Shown: piece by piece, positions 1,295 through 33,536 of the stretch | Position numbering within the stretch: the stretch's first letter is position 1 | Layout of the letters: each line of letters starts with the position of its first letter | Source of the DNA: an uncultured Oscillospiraceae bacterium | Lineage (GTDB): Bacteria; Bacillota; Clostridia; Oscillospirales; Ruminococcaceae | Assembly: GCA_900547455.1 (NCBI GenBank) | Contig: URGV01000003.1 | Coordinates: forward strand, 1 to 64,000 | Reading direction: 5' to 3' | DNA: 64,000 bases | The notes under the pieces: generated by a model | Told to the model about the DNA's origin: nothing | What the model saw: only the letters and a program-made list of their open reading frames with translations | The model's database searches: none | Made by a program: the position numbers and the translations under genes

Positions 1295-2140
1295 TTAATA
1301 TTCGCTATAAACCTCCACTTCCAATCCGGGCAGCTCATCGCAGGTGATGGTGTAGTCCTCCACATCGCGCGGAAAATCGACCTTCTTCTCGACATGAAGC
1401 AGGCGGTGTACCTTGGCGGAGGCGTACTGGCCGTTTCTGCAATTGTGTTTCCACCAGTACAGCTGCAGCACCTCCATACTGCCGTCCGGGCGTGCCGACG
1501 AAGCGTCATTTTCAAACAAGGTGCGCAGAGCCTCCTTTAAGAGCGCGGCGTCCTCCTCACTGAATCCTGTCTTTTCCGCCAGCTGGCAGTTGATGCTGCC
1601 GAAGGTGGTGTAGAGCGCAAATCCCACCCGGTGCTTGGAGCCCATGGTGTCGCTGGATTTTTTGCTTCCGGTTATGCTGTTAACGCTCTTGGTGATTTGC
1701 AGGCTGTCAATCGTGATTGGGTCCACACTGAATGCCGGGTGGATGGACACAGGTCCCCGGATCCCCACCGAGACCTCATCGTCCTTAAAAGCAAACACCT
1801 GTCCAAAACTGCGCACGTCCATCCATGTCTCGCAGGCCGCCTTGGCATACGCTTCCCGATTCTTGGCCTTGGTGGCCGCCGACAAAGCCGGGCAGGCATC
1901 GGCTCGCTCCTTGAGACTGTGGAACCCATCGTTTCGACGGTCATCCGACTGGACAAAGACGCTGGCGCCCAGGTCCATCAGGCGGTTGCGGATCTTCCGC
2001 TTGAGACAAACGTCCGAAATTTCGCCGTATCCTTCATAGGTCTCGCGCGGGCGATTGCCGTTGAGGGGATCGCCGTTTGGGTTGGCGTGGTGCACCGCGA
2101 TTACCAGGGCAAAATCAATTTTGTTCTGCAATATTTCCAT
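1295..2140 (-). CDS. cas7: Type I-C CRISPR backbone protein Cas7 (Csd2)
   Basis: Cas7 of type I-C, the repeated backbone subunit of Cascade that coats the crRNA. The 281-residue length and the N-terminal signature (ALVIAVHHANPNGDPLNGNRP) are typical of Csd2 (the Cas7 RAMP fold with the HxNxNGDP strand). The middle carries the glycine-rich KHRVGFALYTTFGSINCQL region. The start has AAAGGAGG at 8-9 bases. It is the last gene of the operon, 14 bases after cas8c. In most I-C loci cas4-cas1-cas2 follow here; instead the sequence runs into a terminator and the convergent map gene. Confidence 0.95.
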   Translation of the reverse strand: MEILQNKIDFALVIAVHHANPNGDPLNGNRPRETYEGYGEISDVCLKRKIRNRLMDLGASVFVQSDDRRNDGFHSLKERADACPALSAATKAKNREAYAKAACETWMDVRSFGQVFAFKDDEVSVGIRGPVSIHPAFSVDPITIDSLQITKSVNSITGSKKSSDTMGSKHRVGFALYTTFGSINCQLAEKTGFSEEDAALLKEALRTLFENDASSARPDGSMEVLQLYWWKHNCRNGQYASAKVHRLLHVEKKVDFPRDVEDYTITCDELPGLEVEVYSEY

Positions 2141-2154
2141 CAGTAGCTCCTCCT

Positions 2155-2574
2155 TTATTCCTGCTCAACAGGGCTTGTCTCTGTCTCTGCTTTTTGGTCT
2201 CCCGATTTGGAAGCCGCATCTTTAAAAAAGGCCTGCCGCTGGCTGGCGTACCCCAGCAGATACAGCTCGGTCAAGGGCCGATCGTTAAACTCTTCCAGCG
2301 GAATCCGGTCAATCAATCGAAGCATCAGGTCATTCTCATCGATCTTCCCCTTTGCCTTAATCAGCGATTCCAGGTAGGGCTCCAGCTGCTTGCGCAGCAA
2401 GGCAAGCGTCCTGGCCGGATGCTTTGTATAGGCCACCTCATAGCGCAGAGCGTTGGTGGGGCGGACATTTTTTTCTCCCTTCAGGTAGGCGGCATACTGC
2501 TCCAGCTGTTCCGCGCAGGCCAGAATGCGGCCGAACAGGTAGCTGCGGTCACGACAGGTTTCGTCAAGGGCCAT
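2155..2574 (-). CDS. cas11: Internal in-frame Cas11 small subunit of cas8c
   Basis: The C-terminal 139 codons of cas8c have their own perfect ribosome site, AAGGAGG at 2583-2589, 8 bases before an ATG at 2572-2574. Type I-C (and I-D/I-B) Cas8/Cas10d genes are known to make the small Cascade subunit Cas11 by such internal initiation, and a product of about 15-16 kDa from the Cas8c C-terminus is the expected one. The product would be helical and would line the Cascade belly with two copies. The position and quality of the site are seen directly; that it is used is inferred. Confidence 0.75.
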   Translation of the reverse strand: MALDETCRDRSYLFGRILACAEQLEQYAAYLKGEKNVRPTNALRYEVAYTKHPARTLALLRKQLEPYLESLIKAKGKIDENDLMLRLIDRIPLEEFNDRPLTELYLLGYASQRQAFFKDAASKSGDQKAETETSPVEQE

Positions 2575-4272
2575 CGTATATTCCTCCTTCAAATTCCGGT
2601 GATAATATCCTCGTATCAGGGCGCAGGCGATGCTGCGGTTTTTGTTCGCCTCCCAGGGCTTCAGGGCAATGCCGTTGGAGGCCCGGTGCGCCGCCGCCAG
2701 CATAATATCCTTCGGAAACTTCCGCCGCTCGGTAATGCAGGGCATCAGGCGCTCGATGGTGTGCTGCTTGAGCTTTTTGTCCACCTTGGCGCCGTAGGCA
2801 GCCGTCACAATGTCAGCCGGCGCGGGCGCGCCTTCAAAAGCCAGGGGAGTCCATTCTTCCTTTCCGTTTTTCCAGGTTCGCAGCTTGCGGTAACGCAGCT
2901 CCCATTGGAACGTCGTATGCCAGTCGACGATGTTGTCCATCAGGCGGGAGCCCTGCAGCTCCCGATAGTAGCAAACAGACAGCCGTCCCGGCGTTGCGGA
3001 GTCCAGGATGATCACACTGATTTTACTGTACGGTGTCAGGACAGCTCGGTACCCCTGCACAACCTTGTTGAACGCCGCGGCAAATTTCTCCCTCGTCCTG
3101 GGAATCCCCTCAACCACGCTGTCAACGCTCTCTTGCAGATTTTCCTCTTGGTCCAGGTTGTCGGCATCTGCATCCTCTGCGTTCTCGCCGTTGTATCCTC
3201 TCTCCGTTTCCGCATTCCCCTGATCCGGCTCGCTGCATGTGCGCTCCTCCTGGCTGTCGTAATCTTCCTCCATGCCATCCATACCCTTCAGGCTTTTGCG
3301 GCCGCAGGCAATGAAGTCGCAGGTATCGGTCTCAACCGGCGGGACAGGCTCGTTCTCGGTTCCCCAAACCAGGATGGACTGGCTGCCGTTTTGCACTCCC
3401 TGCCGCCCTATCAGCCAGCGAAGGGCACTGTGCGCCTTCTGCGTTGTCTCATACCCGATGGAGAGCGCCTCCTGCGCGGTGCGGAAGCGGCCGCGGAAGG
3501 TAAAATTGTTTTTGTCATTGCTGGAAATCAGTTTCGCCCGGTCGGCAGCATTTCGGATTTTGTAGGGACTCAGCAGAGAAACCGGCATCTCTTTGCCCTG
3601 CACATAACACACCCCGACATCTTCCAAGGTGGAAAGATAATAGCCGGTATAGCTGTCCCAGACCGCCGGGTCCTCAGAAAGATCTTTGCCGCTCACCCGA
3701 AAGCGGACAAAGGTTTCAAACTGGTCGCCGTTTGTCAGGGAATGGAAAATTTCGGGCGCCTCCTCCTTTTTACCGTTCCACTTTTTGAGCAGGTGGCCCT
3801 CCTCATCCGCAAAGAGGATCCCCTCGTCGACCAGATCCCGGATCAGACGCCTTTTTTTCAGGTAGACAAGGACAGCCCGCACCGATTCTAAGCCGAACGG
3901 CGAATCGCACCAGGCCTGCAGCTGGGCGATGTACTCCTCCCACATCTGCTTTTTGCTGCCGCCCCATTCTGTGTAATCCCCTGCAATGTATTGCAGCTTG
4001 TCCACCAGCGGATGGGCAACCGCTTTGGAGGTGCGGGATAAAGACTCCTCGGTACAGGGAATCACGGTGGTCATCTCTTTGCCGCAAAGAACATTCGCTG
4101 TGAGAAATTCACCGGCCTCTGAAAGGATCAGCTCCACGTTGACCTTCTGGGTAGTATGGGCCACCGGCAGCAGCACCGGGGCATCCCACCCGTACCGTAT
4201 GGAAGCGGAGGGCTTTCCCACGTGCGGCAAATTTTTTTCATACACCTGATAGCATCGCTCAAGCCATCCCAT
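2155..4272 (-). CDS. cas8c: Type I-C Cascade large subunit Cas8c (Csd1)
   Basis: Large subunit of the type I-C Cascade, which reads the PAM and opens the target. The sequence follows the Csd1 family: N-terminal [22 protein letters not shown], a [16 protein letters not shown] strand near residue 185, [10 protein letters not shown] near 300, and a helical C-terminus that doubles as Cas11. At 705 residues it is longer than the usual 570-620. The surplus is an acidic, low-complexity stretch at about residues 332-388. The start has AGGAGGT at 8 bases and overlaps the end of cas5 by 14 bases, so the two genes are probably translationally coupled. Confidence 0.95.
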
Positions 4273-4990
4273 CCTGTTTCACCTCCTGATACAGGACGTC
4301 GCAGCCCTGCATATTTTCCCCCAGCACAAACGATTTGGTTCGCTGTTTGTGGATGGGTCGGATCACCGGACAGTCTTCCGGCCGGATAAACCGGATCACG
4401 CCGTCCTGCATGACAGGGCGCCACAGCCGCTCGCTCATCTGGCCGCTGCCGTCCTCGTCCGCATAGGTAATGCCGTGGAGCATCAATCCAAAATCGACGG
4501 GCGGCGTGCCGTCGTAAGCCCCGGGGCCTTGTCCAAATTCACAGGGCTCCACATACCCCTGGCACTCCCGTGTCCCCAGAAAAATGTCCCGCCGCCCGCC
4601 GCGCTCCAGCATCCGTTTGGCAATAAAATAGTGCTTGTTCTCGTTACGGTCGTCACTCAAATCTGCCCTGTGCAGATTCCACTCAAAGTGCGCCTTGATC
4701 TGGTAGGAGACGTCGACCAGATAGGTGTAGATCGAGAGATCGTTGCTGCCATCGTTATACCGGATAGGCCGGATGCCCTTGGATTCGGTCTCGATGGGAT
4801 TCATGACACGGATTGCGTCCGGCACCCAGATGAATGTAGGTTTCCAATACACGCTTTCCAGAATTCCCTTCACCGCCTGGTAGGTCGGAACCGGATAGCT
4901 GTGCTTCTCTCCTCCTACACGCGTTACGGGGTCGCTGAACAGAGCATACCGTCCCCAAAGACGCAGGGTAATCGTGTTGCTGTACTGCAA
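4259..4990 (-). CDS. cas5: Type I-C crRNA endonuclease Cas5d
   Basis: Cas5d (Cas5c) of type I-C. Since I-C has no Cas6, this protein cuts the repeat hairpins of pre-crRNA and stays on the 5' handle in Cascade. The 243 residues begin with the RAMP strand [16 protein letters not shown], followed by the family's [21 protein letters not shown] block and the [17 protein letters not shown] block. The start codon is TTG at 4988-4990 behind GGGGGAG; no ATG fits. It lies 46 bases after cas3 and overlaps cas8c by 14 bases. Confidence 0.93.
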
Positions 4991-5036: not shown

Positions 5037-7427
5037 TCAGTCCTGGCAGACCGGCTCAAGGGAAAGGCCCTTGTGCGCATCATAATACTTTTTCGGCAAA
5101 ACCAGCGCGGCGCCGTCCAGAACGGTATGCAGCACATTTCGCAGTTGTTTATATTCGGACTGGCTGATAGAAACTGTATAGGCCTGCAGCTCCCGCAGCA
5201 GGGCGGCATCCGCCAACCCTGACTGCAGCGCAAGCAGTTTTTCTTCTCCCTTTCCATAGGGCACAAGCACCGGAACGGTCTCGTCCGGGATGGCTGCAAA
5301 AGCCTTCTCCGCCGTACCAAAAGCCTGGCAGAGATCCTTCTGATTCTCCATCACCTTGCCGCTTCCCAGAAAGGCAGAAAGGCCCTGTCGGTTGCTCGTC
5401 AACAGATCCACCATCGTGGTGGAGATGTTGCCCTTCCCTGAAACCGGATATTTCATTTCCAATTTGTTGATTGTGAGATCATAATACCGTTTGTAATATT
5501 CCTGAATCATCTCGGGAGAGAGCAGGTCCTCCCCCTCCTTCAGCCCCGCCAGCAGCTCGCGGGTGATTCTTCGGCCCTTCTGAATCTCCGGCAGTCCGCT
5601 CAAATCTTCTCCCCTGCACTCAATCAGGTAAAGCGGGCTGCACGCTCCTTCCGCATTCCGGTTGTCGCGGCCGGCAGCCTGGACGATGCTGGGCAGGCCG
5701 GCTATGGCGCGAAGCACGCTGGAAAAGCTGAGATCGACACCCGCTTCAAACAGCTGGGTGCTGACACAGATCAGAGGCAAACCGGCGTTGAGGCGCTCGG
5801 TGATCTGCTTCAGCACATCCTCCCGGTGGCGCGAGCAAAGGCGGGTGGTCACACAGTAGAGGGCAGTTTCCTGCGGGACAAGCGGCTTGAGCGCATCGTA
5901 GAGCCTGTTGACCATCTTTTTGGTATTGAGAATGACGAGGATGCTGCGCTTTTCTTTTTGCAGGTCCACCAGAAAATTGGCAATTTCCGGGATGGTCATT
6001 CCTCCCTTCACCGCCGGCGGGATAATTCGTGTCCGCTTGAGCTCTCGGAAAAATCGCTGGTAATCCGGTACCAAATCGGCCTGGGGAGAAAAAATCAAGG
6101 GGTATTCCACCTGGGCAAGGGCAGGCTGTGTCGCTGTGCACAGAACAATCGTGCAGTCAAACAGGCGCGCGAGTGTGTTCAGCGCCAGATTGAGCAGGCA
6201 GGTGTGCTGCAAGGGCAGTGCCTGCACCTCATCCAATAAAAGTACCGAACCGGCCAGTGCAGAAAAGCGGCGGACATCCTGCAAGGGCGCTGCGAACAGG
6301 GCGTTGAGCAGCTGAACCACGGTGGTGCAAATCACCGGTTTCCCTCTCCAGCGTTCACTGCAGGCAAGCCACTTTTCCTGCTTACCCTTTTCATCCTGCT
6401 CAAACAGGACATCGGAATGATGCTCCAGGACATGCTCCTCCCCAAGTGCCTCACGAATATGGTTCGCGTTCTGGTGAACGACGGACTTGTAGGGAGCAAA
6501 GTAAAACAGGCGCTGGACGTTCAGCCGCTTGGCCATTTGGAGGCCAAACCTCACCGCAGAGTAGGTTTTTCCTCCTCCCGTTGGCACACAGAGGCGGTAG
6601 ACACCTGCCGGAAGGCTCTGTCCCGCCTGCAGACATTGATTGGAAATCTCCTGCCGCAGCAAGTCGATAGGGCGCTCCGCCTTCAGGGATTTGACAAACC
6701 TCTCCATCCGCTCTGCAAGCAGATCCCAGTTAGCCTGTCGCTGCTCATCCGAGGGAGGCGTCGGCAGCGGGATGCCATTCATAAAGCAGGCCGTATCGAC
6801 GCAGTCGGCGTCCCGCAAAGCACTCAAGAGAAACCGCTGGACCAGCCCCAGGCCAAACAGCTTCGCATCTGTGCGCTGTTTCGTCCCCACTTCTTCCGGC
6901 AGGATGAGCTCTGCTCTTTCTTCAATGCAAGAGAGTTCCTCACTCGCCTCTCGGAGAAGCTTTTCTACTTCTTCCTCACTGCAGCATTCTGAAAAGAAGG
7001 CTGCGATGCTTTCTGGATAGAGAGAGTTTGCCGGCTTTGAGTACATCTGCTCCAGCCATGGCTGCCTGCCATCCAATGATATATAATCATTGCGGCCGCT
7101 GTGGTGACAGCCGATGGCAAGGGAGATGAGCTGACCGGTCAAACGGTATTTTTCTTTACAATGCTCCCAGATGTAGCGCATGCCCGTGGAGGAGTGGTTG
7201 ACTCTTTCCTTAGTCCCCTCCTCAAGGTGGATCTGTCCCGGCTCACTGGACTTGCCCCCATCATGCGGCAAGCTAGCTACTTCTCCTGTTTTGGACAGGT
7301 TGGCAACCCGACAGTTCTCGCTGCAAAATACTGCCACATTTCTGCTGTGCTCTTTCAGCGACTGGGTCGCAATGACTTCACCAGTACTGTGATCCCTCCT
7401 AACATGGGCAATCAATTGCTTTTCCAT
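5037..7427 (-). CDS. cas3: CRISPR-associated nuclease-helicase Cas3 (type I-C)
   Basis: Cas3 degrades DNA recruited by Cascade. The 796-residue protein has an N-terminal HD nuclease domain (H26, H55-D56 in LPHDGGK, H78, H108-H109) and an SF2 helicase. The helicase shows Walker A VPTGGGKT at 281-288, DEVQ at 399-402, motif III CTATQPAL at about 430 and a motif VI-like QAAGRDNR. All catalytic residues visible are intact. An ATG at 7425-7427 follows AAGGGG by 8 bases; a TTG one codon upstream is the alternative. It is the first gene of the operon, with its own strong promoter. Confidence 0.95.
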   Translation of the reverse strand: MEKQLIAHVRRDHSTGEVIATQSLKEHSRNVAVFCSENCRVANLSKTGEVASLPHDGGKSSEPGQIHLEEGTKERVNHSSTGMRYIWEHCKEKYRLTGQLISLAIGCHHSGRNDYISLDGRQPWLEQMYSKPANSLYPESIAAFFSECCSEEEVEKLLREASEELSCIEERAELILPEEVGTKQRTDAKLFGLGLVQRFLLSALRDADCVDTACFMNGIPLPTPPSDEQRQANWDLLAERMERFVKSLKAERPIDLLRQEISNQCLQAGQSLPAGVYRLCVPTGGGKTYSAVRFGLQMAKRLNVQRLFYFAPYKSVVHQNANHIREALGEEHVLEHHSDVLFEQDEKGKQEKWLACSERWRGKPVICTTVVQLLNALFAAPLQDVRRFSALAGSVLLLDEVQALPLQHTCLLNLALNTLARLFDCTIVLCTATQPALAQVEYPLIFSPQADLVPDYQRFFRELKRTRIIPPAVKGGMTIPEIANFLVDLQKEKRSILVILNTKKMVNRLYDALKPLVPQETALYCVTTRLCSRHREDVLKQITERLNAGLPLICVSTQLFEAGVDLSFSSVLRAIAGLPSIVQAAGRDNRNAEGACSPLYLIECRGEDLSGLPEIQKGRRITRELLAGLKEGEDLLSPEMIQEYYKRYYDLTINKLEMKYPVSGKGNISTTMVDLLTSNRQGLSAFLGSGKVMENQKDLCQAFGTAEKAFAAIPDETVPVLVPYGKGEEKLLALQSGLADAALLRELQAYTVSISQSEYKQLRNVLHTVLDGAALVLPKKYYDAHKGLSLEPVCQD

Positions 7428-7450
7428 CAAGTAGGCCCCTTTTCTATTTT

Positions 7451-7465
7451 ATTTATTTAAGTGAA
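7451..7465 (+). promoter_or_regulatory. 15-base target of crRNA-like guide in cas leader
   Basis: ATTTATTTAAGTGAA here is identical to 7612-7626, the bases that directly follow the degenerate repeat handle of the divergent small RNA. The identity begins exactly at the handle boundary and is preceded by TTT (type I-C PAM is usually TTC). The site lies about 10-25 bases downstream of the predicted cas transcription start and just ahead of the cas3 ribosome site. A Cascade complex bound here would block the operon. The function is inferred. Confidence 0.5.
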
Positions 7466-7481
7466 AAATATCATCAATCCT

Positions 7482-7510
7482 ATGTTAACAAAAAGATCAT
7501 CATTTGTCAA
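7482..7510 (-). promoter_or_regulatory. Promoter of the cas operon
   Basis: Reading the minus strand, the consensus -35 TTGACA (7505-7510) and -10 TAACAT (7482-7487) have a 17-base spacer. Transcription would start near 7475, about 50 bases before the cas3 ATG. Confidence 0.75.
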
Positions 7511-7537
7511 GTCAAATAGCCTTCAATAAAAAAAGGA

Positions 7538-7566
7538 TTGAAAAAAAACTCCAAACCATGTATACT
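7538..7566 (+). promoter_or_regulatory. Divergent promoter of small RNA upstream of cas3
   Basis: A -35 TTGAAA (7538-7543) and a -10 TATACT (7561-7566) with a 17-base spacer drive rightward transcription from about 7573. That start is immediately at the degenerate CRISPR-repeat hairpin. No protein gene lies downstream within reach. Confidence 0.65.
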
Positions 7567-7572
7567 ACCAAT

Positions 7573-7685
7573 TGACATCTTCCATCACAACAAGGAGATG
7601 TGGATAGAAAAATTTATTTAAGTGAATTAGGTACTGCCCTAGCGGGAAGAAGATGCAGCAAAATGTATCTTCTTCCCGCTCTTTC
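7573..7685 (+). ncRNA. Putative crRNA-like Cas-regulating RNA (CreR-like)
   Basis: The transcript would begin with a hairpin, CATCT(T)CC (7576-7583) paired with GGAGATG (7594-7600). It is followed by TGGATAGAAAA (7601-7611), which resembles the 3' handle of type I-C repeats (TGGATTGAAAT) with 2 changes. The next 15 bases (7612-7626) match the cas leader at 7451-7465 exactly. The RNA ends in a perfect 14-bp hairpin (7641-7680). Degenerate repeat plus short guide against the cas promoter is the layout of the CreR/CreA type RNAs reported for other CRISPR types. Here it stands beside a type I-C operon with no array. Sequence features are seen; transcription, processing and repression are inferred. 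Confidence 0.5.
7641..7680 (+). terminator. Perfect 14-bp hairpin ending the small RNA
   Basis: AGCGGGAAGAAGAT (7641-7654) pairs perfectly with 7667-7680 around a 12-base loop and is followed by ctttct. The T-run is weak, so it may be a terminator, a 3'-protecting stem, or a replacement for a second repeat. Confidence 0.55.
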
Positions 7686-7762
7686 TGTAAAAGCAAAATT
7701 TTTCTCTCCCTCTCCTTTCGGTGCTACAGAAATATCCGTTCGACAAAACTCGGGGCAAAAAT

Positions 7763-7811
7763 AAAAGACCGACTTGTGCACACACATTTTAACGTGGCAA
7801 ATCGGTCTTTT
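7763..7811. repeat. Dispersed palindrome, copy 1
   Basis: Arms AAAAGACCGACTTG (7763-7776) and CAAATCGGTCTTTT (7798-7811) form a 14-bp stem with one mismatch and T-runs on both strands. The same arms recur at 28449-28497 around a different loop. It may act as a terminator, and it behaves like a REP-type intergenic element. Confidence 0.6.
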
Positions 7812-7903
7812 GTTGTGGCTTAAGGTAGCTTGGGTGCAAGCGTCAGCGAAGCACCCAATGGAATCTTCTCGTCACATCACAAAACACCTCCCCGGAGGGG
7901 AGA
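7812..7903. other. Intergenic stretch, small hairpin only
   Basis: No gene is seen. It contains an 8-bp inverted repeat TTGGGTGC/GCACCCAA (7830-7837 and 7851-7858). The GC-rich sequence before the HTH gene's terminator has no recognised function. Confidence 0.4.
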
Positions 7904-7941
7904 AAAAAAGGTGAAACTCTTCATCGAGTTTCACCTTTTTT
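7904..7941. terminator. Terminator overlapping the HTH gene stop
   Basis: A 16-bp hairpin (AAAAAGGTGAAACTC arm, loop ttcatc) carries T-runs on both strands. It overlaps the stop codon (7931-7933) of the HTH gene. Confidence 0.85.
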
Positions 7942-8422
7942 CTTCTTTATCTTTTAAAAATTTGCCATATAGAAACACGCAACAAACAGCATTTAGAAGC
8001 GAAATAGTCAAGAGCGGCCACAGCCGACTTTCAATCCAAAAATAAGGTTCCAGAAAAGAAAGAATTTCCCCTCCTGATCCCTCTCGAAGTTCGGGCTTAA
8101 AAATCGTAATCAGATAGGCCAATAGCAGGAAAATTGCTGCGCAAAAAGCGCAAATAATCGCTCCTTTTTTATATGAATTTATCGAGCATATTTCATTATT
8201 GCATATTTCTTCTTTCTGCAACTTTGTACAAGAAATATCCAACAGTTCATCTGCTGAAATTTCTAAAATTTCACATATTTTTTTCAAATTATCTAAATCC
8301 GGTTGAGCAAGATCGGTTTCCCATTTAGAAACCGCCTGTCGAGATATCCCCAGTTCTTTTGCTACCGCTTCCTGAGAAAGTCCCTTCTTTCGCCGCAATT
8401 GCCGCAATTTTTCTCCCAGCAA
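7931..8422 (-). CDS. XRE-family HTH regulator with membrane tail
   Basis: A 163-residue protein with an N-terminal Cro/CI-type helix-turn-helix (about residues 3-58, with LSQEAVAKELGISRQAVSKWE as recognition region), a short linker, and two hydrophobic segments (about 86-108 and 135-153). This architecture is common in Firmicutes for membrane-anchored transcription factors that sense the envelope. The start is probably TTG at 8420-8422 behind a GAGGGGG run that sits unusually close; no ATG is available. It stands alone between the cas locus and tspO. The target genes are unknown. AT-richer codon use than its neighbours hints at transfer. Confidence 0.75.
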   Translation of the reverse strand: MLGEKLRQLRRKKGLSQEAVAKELGISRQAVSKWETDLAQPDLDNLKKICEILEISADELLDISCTKLQKEEICNNEICSINSYKKGAIICAFCAAIFLLLAYLITIFKPELREGSGGEILSFLEPYFWIESRLWPLLTISLLNAVCCVFLYGKFLKDKEEKR

Positions 8423-17497: not shown

Positions 17498-18514
17498 TTA
17501 ATATTTGGAATCGTCGTCGGAGAGCAGCTCCTTCATGGTGCTCATGTTTTCCAGCAGCTTGCCGGTGCCGGCCGCGACGCAGTCCAGCGGATTTTCCGCC
17601 ACCTGAACCGGCATGCCGGTCTCCTTGGAAACCAGCTGGTCCAGACCGCGCAGCAGCGCGCCGCCGCCGGTCAGGGTGATGCCGTGGTCGATGATGTCGG
17701 CCGAGAGCTCCGGCGGGGTGCGCTCCAGGGTGGTGCGGATGGCGTCCAGCACCGAGGTGATGGAATCAGCCAGCGCCTCGCGCACCTCTTCCGGATAGAG
17801 CATCATGTTCTTTGGCAGGCCGTCCACCAGGTTGCGGCCCTTGATCTCCATCGGCTGCTCGTCCTCATACGGATAGGCCGAGCCGATCTCGATCTTGATA
17901 TTCTCGGCGGTGCGGTCGCCGATCAGGAGGTTATATTTTTTCTTGACATACTGGATGATGGCCGAGTCAAACTCGTCGCCACCCACTCTGACCGAGCGGG
18001 ACGCAACGATGCCGCCCAGCGAGATAACCGCGACCTCGCTGGTGCCGCCGCCGATATCGACAACCATGCTGCCGGTAGCTTCCGCAACCGGCAGGCCTGC
18101 GCCAATAGCAGCTGCCATCGGCTCCTCGATGATGGCGACATAGCGGGCTCCTGCCTTGAGCGAGGCTTCCTTAACCGCGCGGCGCTCAACGGCGGTGACG
18201 CCGGAGGGGATGCAGATGACCACCCTCGGGCGGGCAAAGATCGAGTTGTTGCAGGCTTTTTTGATGAAGATCTGCAGCATGCTGGCAGCGATGTCAAAGT
18301 CCGCGATGACGCCGTCCTTCAAGGGTCTGACCGCCACAATCGAGCCGGGGGTTCTGCCGATGACGTCCTTGGCTTCCTGTCCGACATATTTGACGGTATA
18401 GTTGCGGGTGTCCACCGCGACCACCGAAGGTTCCCGCATGATGATGCCCTTGCCCTTCATAAAGACCAAGGTGTTTGCCGTACCCAAATCGATTCCAATA
18501 TCTTTTCCGAACAT
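17498..18514 (-). CDS. mreB: Rod shape-determining protein MreB
   Basis: Bacterial actin that forms filaments under the membrane and guides side-wall synthesis. The 338 residues begin [20 protein letters not shown] (phosphate 1) and contain the connect and phosphate 2 motifs ([18 protein letters not shown]) and the adenosine motif [14 protein letters not shown]. The length is typical. The ATG at 18514 has a perfect AGGAGG at 7 bases; the longer reading with an Ala/Gly-rich head is not real. It is the first gene of the mre operon, with a leader of roughly 250 bases. Confidence 0.97.
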
Positions 18515-18926
18515 ATTTTTTCCTCCTGCCAGAATGAAAGCGGCTGCATTTCCCGCAGAGCCTGCCCCCGCCGCCTTGCCTATCTTTTTATTTCTACCCA
18601 CGCCCCTCCGGGGCCATGTACGATTGCCTTTTTGATGTCTGCCGCGCCGTTTTGAAGCTTTTCGTCCCAGCTGTTTTTCCGATGAAATCCGTTTGTCCAG
18701 GCAGCTTTTTCATTTCCTTTTCCCGCATGTCTATCCAAAAAAGAGAAAAGGGGCGCATTATCTTATATATTATAACCTGAACGTCATGCAATCTCAACAG
18801 GAATTTTTGAATTTTTTTTCAGAGTCGAAAAATTACGATATTTGTACCAAAGCAGCTTGGTTGTCAGCTGTTTCTCTGTCTAAAATCCCCAATAAAGCCG
18901 CCCGCCGCGCCGCTCTTTTCCAGTTT
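18515..18926. other. mreB leader and intergenic region
   Basis: No gene is seen. On the minus strand, a consensus promoter (-35 TTGAGA at 18792-18797, -10 TATAAT at 18769-18774, 17-base spacer) drives mreBCD-mrdA. This leaves an untranslated leader of about 250 bases in which no known riboswitch motif is recognised. Confidence 0.6.
18769..18797 (-). promoter_or_regulatory. Promoter of mreBCD operon
   Basis: TTGAGA (18792-18797) and TATAAT (18769-18774) lie on the minus strand with a 17-base spacer. Confidence 0.7.
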
Positions 18927-33023: not shown

Positions 33024-33136
33024 CGCTACCTTCTCCCCTTTTTTAGGATTGGATAAAAAAGTCCGAACAGAAATCGTGTCGAACTTAACTTTTCAATTCA
33101 TAAAAAATGGCCCTACTGGGTGAGATCACTTTTTAC

Positions 33137-33247
33137 GGAAAGAGAGGGCTTCACTCCGTTACCCCTCGCCTAAAAACAGTCCACCGGACTGTTTTTGCGG
33201 CAGAAACTTCGTTTCTGCTGCCGGCTCATTCGAATCCCTCTCTTTCC
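33137..33247 (-). ncRNA. tRNA-tailed structured element 2
   Basis: A 111-base element. A 16-bp closing stem (GGAAAGAGAGGGATTC with its partner ending CTCTTTCC) encloses two hairpins, CAGCAGAAAC.../...GTTTCTG and AAAAACAGTCC/GGACTGTTTTT. The 3' flank is GTA instead of GCCA, so this copy has lost the CCA end. Confidence 0.5.
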
Positions 33248-33289
33248 AATTCATAAAAAAAGTGACCCCACTGGGTGGGATCACTTTTT

Positions 33290-33404
33290 TGGCGGAAAGA
33301 GAGGGATTCACTCCGTTACCCCTCGCCTAAAAACAGTCCACCGGACTGTTTTTACAGCAGAATCTCCGCTTCTGCTGCCGGCTCATTCGAATCCCCCTCT
33401 TTCC
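33290..33404 (-). ncRNA. tRNA-tailed structured element 1
   Basis: Same fold as the neighbouring element: a 16-bp closing stem with one G-U pair, hairpins CAGCAGAA/TTCTGCTG and AAAAACAGTCC/GGACTGTTTTT, and a 3' end CTCTTTCC-GCCA identical to that of tRNA-Ser. It could be a tRNA-like RNA or a mobile tRNA-derived repeat. No anticodon arm is recognisable. Confidence 0.55.
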
Positions 33405-33407
33405 AAT

Positions 33408-33444
33408 TCAAAAAAAGTGACCCCACCGTGTGGGATCACTTTTT
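33408..33444 (-). terminator. Terminator of tRNA-Ser
   Basis: The hairpin GTGATCCCACAC...GTGGGGTCAC is flanked by A/T runs directly after the tRNA CCA end. Near-identical copies follow each tandem element (33253-33289 and 33101-33135). Confidence 0.85.
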
Positions 33445-33536
33445 TGGCGGAAAGAGAGGGATTCGAACCCTCGGTGCCTTTATAGGGCACACACGATTTC
33501 CAGTCGTGCGCCTTAGACCAGCTCAGCCATCTTTCC
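33445..33536 (-). tRNA. tRNA-Ser(GGA)
   Basis: A 92-base class II tRNA. The acceptor is GGAAAGA/TCTTTCC, the D-arm is GGCTGAGCTGGTCTAAGGC, and the anticodon loop CTGGAAA carries GGA. There is a long variable arm and a T-loop GGTTCGAATCC; discriminator G and CCA are encoded. The decodable codons are UCC and UCU. Its 3' end is copied in the tandem repeats that follow. Confidence 0.97.

Follow-up and report, generated by a model that had tools for sequence, protein, structure and literature searches.

Standalone repeats lying near cas loci, mostly of type I, and provided with guides that partly match cas promoters were reportedly described by Shmakov et al. in 2023, and the tracr-L RNA of Cas9 systems is said (Workman et al. 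2021) to be a natural guide RNA with which the effector represses its own operon. In the more recent literature, autorepression by CreR is reported for types I-B, I-E and V-A (PMC13131331) and a review places CreR in type I and V-A systems (PMC12737573). An account of CreA (PMC8501985) describes for H. hispanica a one-repeat form with a terminator, the two-repeat form being commoner there, and states that a second repeat added to CreA made the RNA more abundant. An autorepressor of type I-C is described in none of the titles and abstract openings that we searched, mostly from non-subscription sources, and may sit in the supplements of the 2023 papers by Liu or Shmakov. Here we describe a gene at 7538-7685 in a 64-kb stretch of DNA (the window, meaning the whole stretch analysed) which, as judged from sequence and its comparison among relatives, very probably encodes a crRNA-like RNA of the CreR kind, which would likely direct the operon's own Cascade to repress the cas promoter.

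The cas genes of the window are arranged on the reverse strand as cas3 (5037-7430 (-); HD and helicase, an open frame of 797 aa whose listed start is TTG, with an ATG one codon further in), cas5c (4259-4990 (-)), cas8c or Csd1 (2155-4272 (-)) and cas7 or Csd2, the last gene of the operon (1295-2140 (-)). All were recognised by NCBIfam and PADLOC models: the NCBIfam cut-offs were passed with the Cas5c, Cas8c and Cas7c models and with two Cas3 models, and PADLOC named the products Cas3c, Cas5c, Cas8c and Cas7c. All four frames are open, and cas3-cas5c-cas8c-cas7 constitute a type I-C effector operon. A hairpin visible by eye follows directly 3' of cas7, and then map, the methionine aminopeptidase gene; neither the gene list nor the region past cas7 contains cas4, cas1 or cas2 beside the operon. 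The first-pass annotation of this DNA had spoken of an operon with no array nearby, and this holds for the 64 kb as a whole, in which no CRISPR array was found and only one repeat is present, where a canonical array would have at least two near-identical repeats with spacers. A complete type I-C system, with cas4-cas1-cas2 and an array, is found neither beside the operon nor within the window. The closest cas3 among named genomes (best 80 of 262 relatives) is about 60% identical, with 63% over part of the protein in L007, and one further protein is 96% identical to the cas3 of the window. For aspS, matching proteins reached up to 93% over the full length and those of Oscillospiraceae about 75%, and of three genomes from the genus of L001 two gave aspS matches, these being partial. 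The Cas8c encoded at 2155-4272 (-) comprises 705 aa against 588 positions of the family model and has an acidic insertion at about residues 340-390. At Rfam gathering cut-offs the sole match in the window was a tRNA at 33448-33536 (-), overlapped by a tandem repeat at 33089-33464 (157-bp units, 2.4 copies).

Our promoter scan retrieved four promoter-like sites in 7350-7800 against 0.9 expected, and predicted a cas promoter (TTGACA-17-TAACAT with TG before it, 7482-7510 (-)) and a small RNA promoter (TTGAAA-17-TATACT, 7538-7566 (+)), which are divergent and both upstream of cas3. The transcript predicted from the latter would open with GAC and the hairpin CATCT(T)CC/GGAGATG, continue through the handle TGGATAGAAAA into ATTTATTTAAGTGAA and finish in a terminator with 17-nt arms. 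Its repeat portion, 7574-7611 (+), is a degenerate type I-C repeat in which GAC is followed by the hairpin at 7576-7583/7594-7600 and by the 11-nt handle at 7601-7611, and the RNA is closed by an intrinsic terminator at 7641-7685 (+) with arms at 7641-7657/7664-7680. Folding of the free RNA predicts the repeat hairpin (z = -7.4, the terminator contributing much), with handle and guide partly paired as well. The arrays of seven close relatives (L002, L003, L004, L008, L010, L012 and L015) end in TGGATAGAAAT, so that the handle of the window differs from the native one in its last base only; TGGATAGAAA is the repeat ending by which an array of the host would be recognised. Set against 7574-7611, as the first-pass annotation had proposed, the real I-C repeat of the clade has the hairpin layout and the handle in common. 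The element is therefore, as in CreR, a degenerate repeat with a near-native handle outside any array. The reading made from the letters had anticipated much of this anatomy: the divergent second promoter was recovered by the scan, the repeat hairpin is present, and the likeness of the handle to type I-C turned out to be even closer than supposed. A perfect 14-bp closing hairpin had also been claimed, of which the hairpin itself stands and the length and perfection do not, the arms being of 17 nt and 94% complementary.

A second, solitary repeat-like unit lies at 18591-18617 (-), upstream of an mreB-like gene (17498-18601 (-)), and consists of GCCCC-GGA-GGGGC and then GTGGGTAGAAAT; its form closely resembles that of the relatives' I-C repeats, a TGGGTAGAAAT handle being also present in L001, and for the 17 nt past it the window offers no target above chance. 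TGGATTGAAA is found at 8029-8038 (-), inside the XRE-type gene 7931-8422 and without a preceding hairpin, and is probably a coding coincidence.

The 15 nt that come straight after the handle, 7612-7626 (+), are identical to 7451-7465 and constitute the longest direct repeat found in 7200-8200, the unmatched guide running on to about 7640. The target (7448-7465 (+)) is situated in the cas leader, with the flank TTT at 7448-7450 and the protospacer at 7451-7465, just inside the predicted cas transcript. The exact 15-base identity in this register, the PAM-like TTT and the placing of the target on the cas side are all as the first-pass annotation had them. Searching the whole window for TTY plus guide retrieved one perfect site, 7448-7465 (0 expected, 100 shuffles), and allowing up to three mismatches added nothing else than the guide's own copy, which is without the flank. 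Limited complementarity of a guide to the cas promoter region beside a PAM, here 15 nt behind TTT, is what characterises CreR; a match to a toxin gene promoter, as in CreA, was not found in the window, its only flanked match being the cas leader. Since the guide matches the start of the very operon beside it, the RNA would likely steer the CRISPR complex onto the operon's own promoter and turn it down.

Relatives of the locus were gathered via cas3, resulting in 78 named-genome loci (from the best 80 of 262) plus further loci. From 157 stretches with a cas3 match, 139 distinct upstream regions were kept, the dropped ones starting after cas3 residue 40, scoring below 200 bits, having fewer than 150 bases upstream or being duplicates. 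Handle-like sites were sought on both strands of the 139 regions, and the guide behind each was tested against the region it came from, a match being at least 12 of 15 (positions 1-17 minus 6 and 12) with a TTC, TTT or CTC flank. The 77 handle-like sites yielded a handle plus guide matching the own cas leader in 32 of the 139 regions, the window included and each another locus, against a chance expectation of 0.2 (20 shuffles for each of the 77 candidate guides, the null being single-base shuffling of the guide); the loci are related, so counts across them are not independent. Fourteen named-genome loci (among the best 80 of 262) have a cas3 at least 44% identical, and 12 of these, all except L003 and L007, have usable upstream DNA. 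The matched RNA is present in eight of the 12 (L001, L004, L005, L006, L009, L011, L013 and L015); L008 and L012 retain repeat hairpin and handle upstream of cas3 with a guide that fits the leader at 8/15 only, reflecting either decayed autorepression or a target elsewhere, and in the remaining two, L002 and L010, the DNA upstream of cas3 lacks such an RNA. The leader of L010 resembles that of its relative L005 and is without the guide RNA, a natural deletion for comparison. More widely, the matched RNA was found in 18 of 66 loci with a cas8c match (named-genome loci, best 80 of 262, plus the window) and in 10/64 of the further regions beyond the named-genome loci. The guide RNA of L025, the locus of the gut isolate Longicatena caecimuris DSM 29481, and those of L138, L149 and L016 are on the cas3 strand, not divergent from it. 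Viral contigs contained no cas3 relative and no copy of handle plus guide.

The first-pass annotation had proposed to look for co-variation of guide and target in related loci, and both indeed change together. The guides are spelled differently from locus to locus, and for 30 of the 32 the own leader is the best fit when compared with every other leader of the set; the 990 cross comparisons of guides with foreign leaders, from which the L006-L009 pair was excluded, reached a maximum of 13/15. Sites were also selected by simply counting the matches at 17 positions, regardless of the flank and with all positions weighted equally, the cut-off being at least 13/17. The 34 sites that reached it have, at positions 1 to 17, 0, 2, 1, 0, 0, 15, 2, 1, 3, 3, 0, 19, 2, 3, 3, 7 and 14 mismatches, and 24, 25 and 21 at positions 18-20, which is near chance. 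Positions 6 and 12 together account for 34 mismatches in 68 cells, as against 20 in 442 for the other positions 1-15 (Fisher p ~2e-20, a value too small as the loci are related), and a TTC or TTT flank, unasked for, accompanies 27 of the 34 sites; six carry flanks besides TTC, TTT and CTC and may be chance matches. Positions 6 and 12 are those reported as non-pairing in the CreA guide (PMC8501985). The pair of the window is perfect even at these two positions; the periodic mismatch pattern thus comes from its relatives only, and the pair of the window may be young. When guide-target pairs were searched irrespective of the handle, 78 were found, of which 21 have handles with 0-1 mismatches and 57 handles with at least 4, none having 2 or 3; among the 57 with a poor handle many resemble the arms of hairpins or known pairs taken in reverse.

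The matched loci also share their anatomy. Leaving out L009, a near-duplicate of L006 that is counted in the 32, 29 of 31 loci have a promoter (at least 8/12) ahead of the repeat, as against 25% of random places, and 28/31 have a terminator-like hairpin past the guide, as against 44% of random places, beginning a median of 29 nt from the guide start, and the handle-side stem averages 7.2 bp in the 32 loci versus 3.5 at random places. The usual form is therefore a promoter, one degenerate repeat, a short guide and a terminator. Relative to the best predicted cas promoter, the targets of 19/31 loci fall into two groups, namely 11 antisense-strand targets whose first guide base falls at +1 to +29 and 8 sense-strand targets for which it falls at -50 to -60; in both groups the flank lies distally and the complete Cascade footprint runs into the promoter. 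Taking this footprint as the flank plus 34 nt and the promoters as consensus predictions, it covers at least part of the interval between -35 box and start site in 20 of 31 loci, the chosen promoter being left untouched in 11, the promoter choice depending on the rule applied in ten loci (L016, L019, L023, L037, L088, L120, L142, L147, L148 and L149). Where the promoter score is at least 10 there is overlap in 18 of 26 loci, and the footprint overlaps more than its own mirror image in 18 and less in 3 (sign test, 7e-4). Footprints running into promoters suggest promoter occlusion by bound Cascade as the mechanism. In the window the footprint would span about 7448-7484 and so reach beyond the predicted start site onto the edge of the -10 box.

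The circuit can be pictured as follows. Cas5c, Cas5 being the processing enzyme of type I-C according to PMC10651486, would cleave the repeat so that the 11-nt handle remains, and Cascade would form around the RNA from Cas7, Cas8c and Cas5c. The complex would then read TTT at 7448-7450, pair over the 15 nt and, its body reaching to about 7484, occlude the predicted promoter elements. In the light of type I work, a 15-nt match would be too short to license Cas3 cutting. By analogy with the CreR reports, a shortage of Cascade, its occupation by other crRNAs or its inhibition by an anti-CRISPR would ease the repression.

The same two copies can be read otherwise. Identical 15-nt sites flank both promoters and a helix-turn-helix gene is next door (7931-8422); they could thus be paired operators of a DNA-binding regulator, such as this XRE-type protein, the likeness to handle and repeat being due to chance. 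However, the sequence of the pair changes in relatives and what stays is the register after the handle, the flank at one copy and the mismatches at 6 and 12, for whose piling up neither an operator site nor a chance repeat gives a reason, and some relatives have their target on the opposite strand from the guide copy; we hold this explanation to be highly improbable. The layout of the RNA, on the other hand, is that of the one-repeat CreA of H. hispanica (PMC8501985), which brings up an antitoxin RNA repressing not cas but some small toxin gene concealed in the interval between the promoters. Against this, no flanked match other than the cas leader occurs in the 64 kb, and this site is inside the predicted cas3 transcript; an antitoxin role of the RNA appears extremely unlikely.

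It could also be argued that the element is the remnant of a decayed array whose last spacer derives by accident from the cas leader and has no regulatory role now, since L001 has a decaying array with divergent repeats past cas7 and the window is without adaptation genes and array. Nonetheless every part, from promoter and hairpin through handle and guide fit to terminator, is kept both in the window and in loci with full arrays; the element is upstream of cas3, whereas the arrays of close relatives lie after the cas genes; and the mismatch pattern looks like selection. A mere remnant is therefore very unlikely in our opinion. The crRNA-like guide put forward by the first-pass annotation is in turn supported by features that recur from locus to locus, namely guide and target changing together, the TTC/TTT flank, the short match and the footprint aimed at the promoter.

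If the RNA is a guide for its own Cascade, the missing array deserves attention. Searches with TIGR03640 identified cas1 in 14 of 20 genomes and gave no match in the assemblies of L001 and L013; both are metagenome assemblies, so that this absence counts for little. In L001, whose terminator stem resembles that of the window, 7970-8420 past cas7 contains a stub of the frame that elsewhere follows cas7, which from gene order and a motif we take to be Cas4 in the many other loci, and then about five divergent repeats. The adaptation genes of L001 have apparently been deleted, cas3, cas5c, cas8c, cas7 and the guide RNA remaining. In L013 a short array closely follows cas7; past cas7 of the window there is nothing array-like, making it further reduced than both. 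Either an array exists elsewhere in the genome or the repressor RNA is the only guide left. The latter would make the operon an effector without memory, whose only guide is the RNA repressing it, a sensor and borrower of foreign guides; we put this forward as a speculation that is itself unlikely. Were it true, Cascade would hold the operon down in a closed loop until something takes Cascade away, be it an anti-CRISPR or an array or repeat of foreign origin that a plasmid or phage carries in, with a burst of Cascade and Cas3 as the outcome; the operon would not be an adaptive immune system and L001 and L013 would be steps on the same road. An intact effector operon with the RNA and no array at hand makes the purpose of such operons testable. 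Beyond this, the natural guide-target pairs provide a ready data set on which guide positions Cascade ignores (6 and 12), on the length of a repressing match, which fades to chance past about 16-17 nt, and on the way the complex is aimed, tending to have its body pointing into the promoter.

Among the systems described to date, tracr-L resembles the locus in that a natural guide makes the effector repress its own operon, and differs from it in the effector class and the origin of the RNA. The crRNA-like elements of Shmakov et al. 2023 (NAR gkad495) reportedly have in common with it a standalone repeat near a cas locus and a guide to the cas promoter. Solitary I-C repeat units outside arrays are also known as Racr RNA anti-CRISPRs, including RacrIC1 for type I-C; these are carried by viruses and inhibit the host (PMC10651486), whereas the RNA of the window adjoins the cas operon and its guide matches the cas leader, and its neighbours such as map and aspS, the genes viewed in this respect, look chromosomal. 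The CreA RNA of CreTA (PMC8501985) shares the degenerate repeat, a short guide whose target is flanked by TTC, the guide positions 6 and 12 left unread and the one-repeat form with terminator, but represses a toxin RNA, while here the guide matches the cas leader and the interval between the promoters shows no toxin gene. CreR (Liu et al. 2023, Cell Host Microbe 31:1481, as described in PMC13131331, PMC12737573 and PMC12948488) is reported for I-B, I-E and V-A, unlike the present type I-C RNA with one repeat and a terminator, whose operon lacks array and adaptation genes in the window; the two are alike in being crRNA-like RNAs with a partial match to the cas promoter region and in the autorepression by Cascade proposed for them. 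The comparative evidence from some thirty loci would extend RNA-guided cas autorepression to type I-C.
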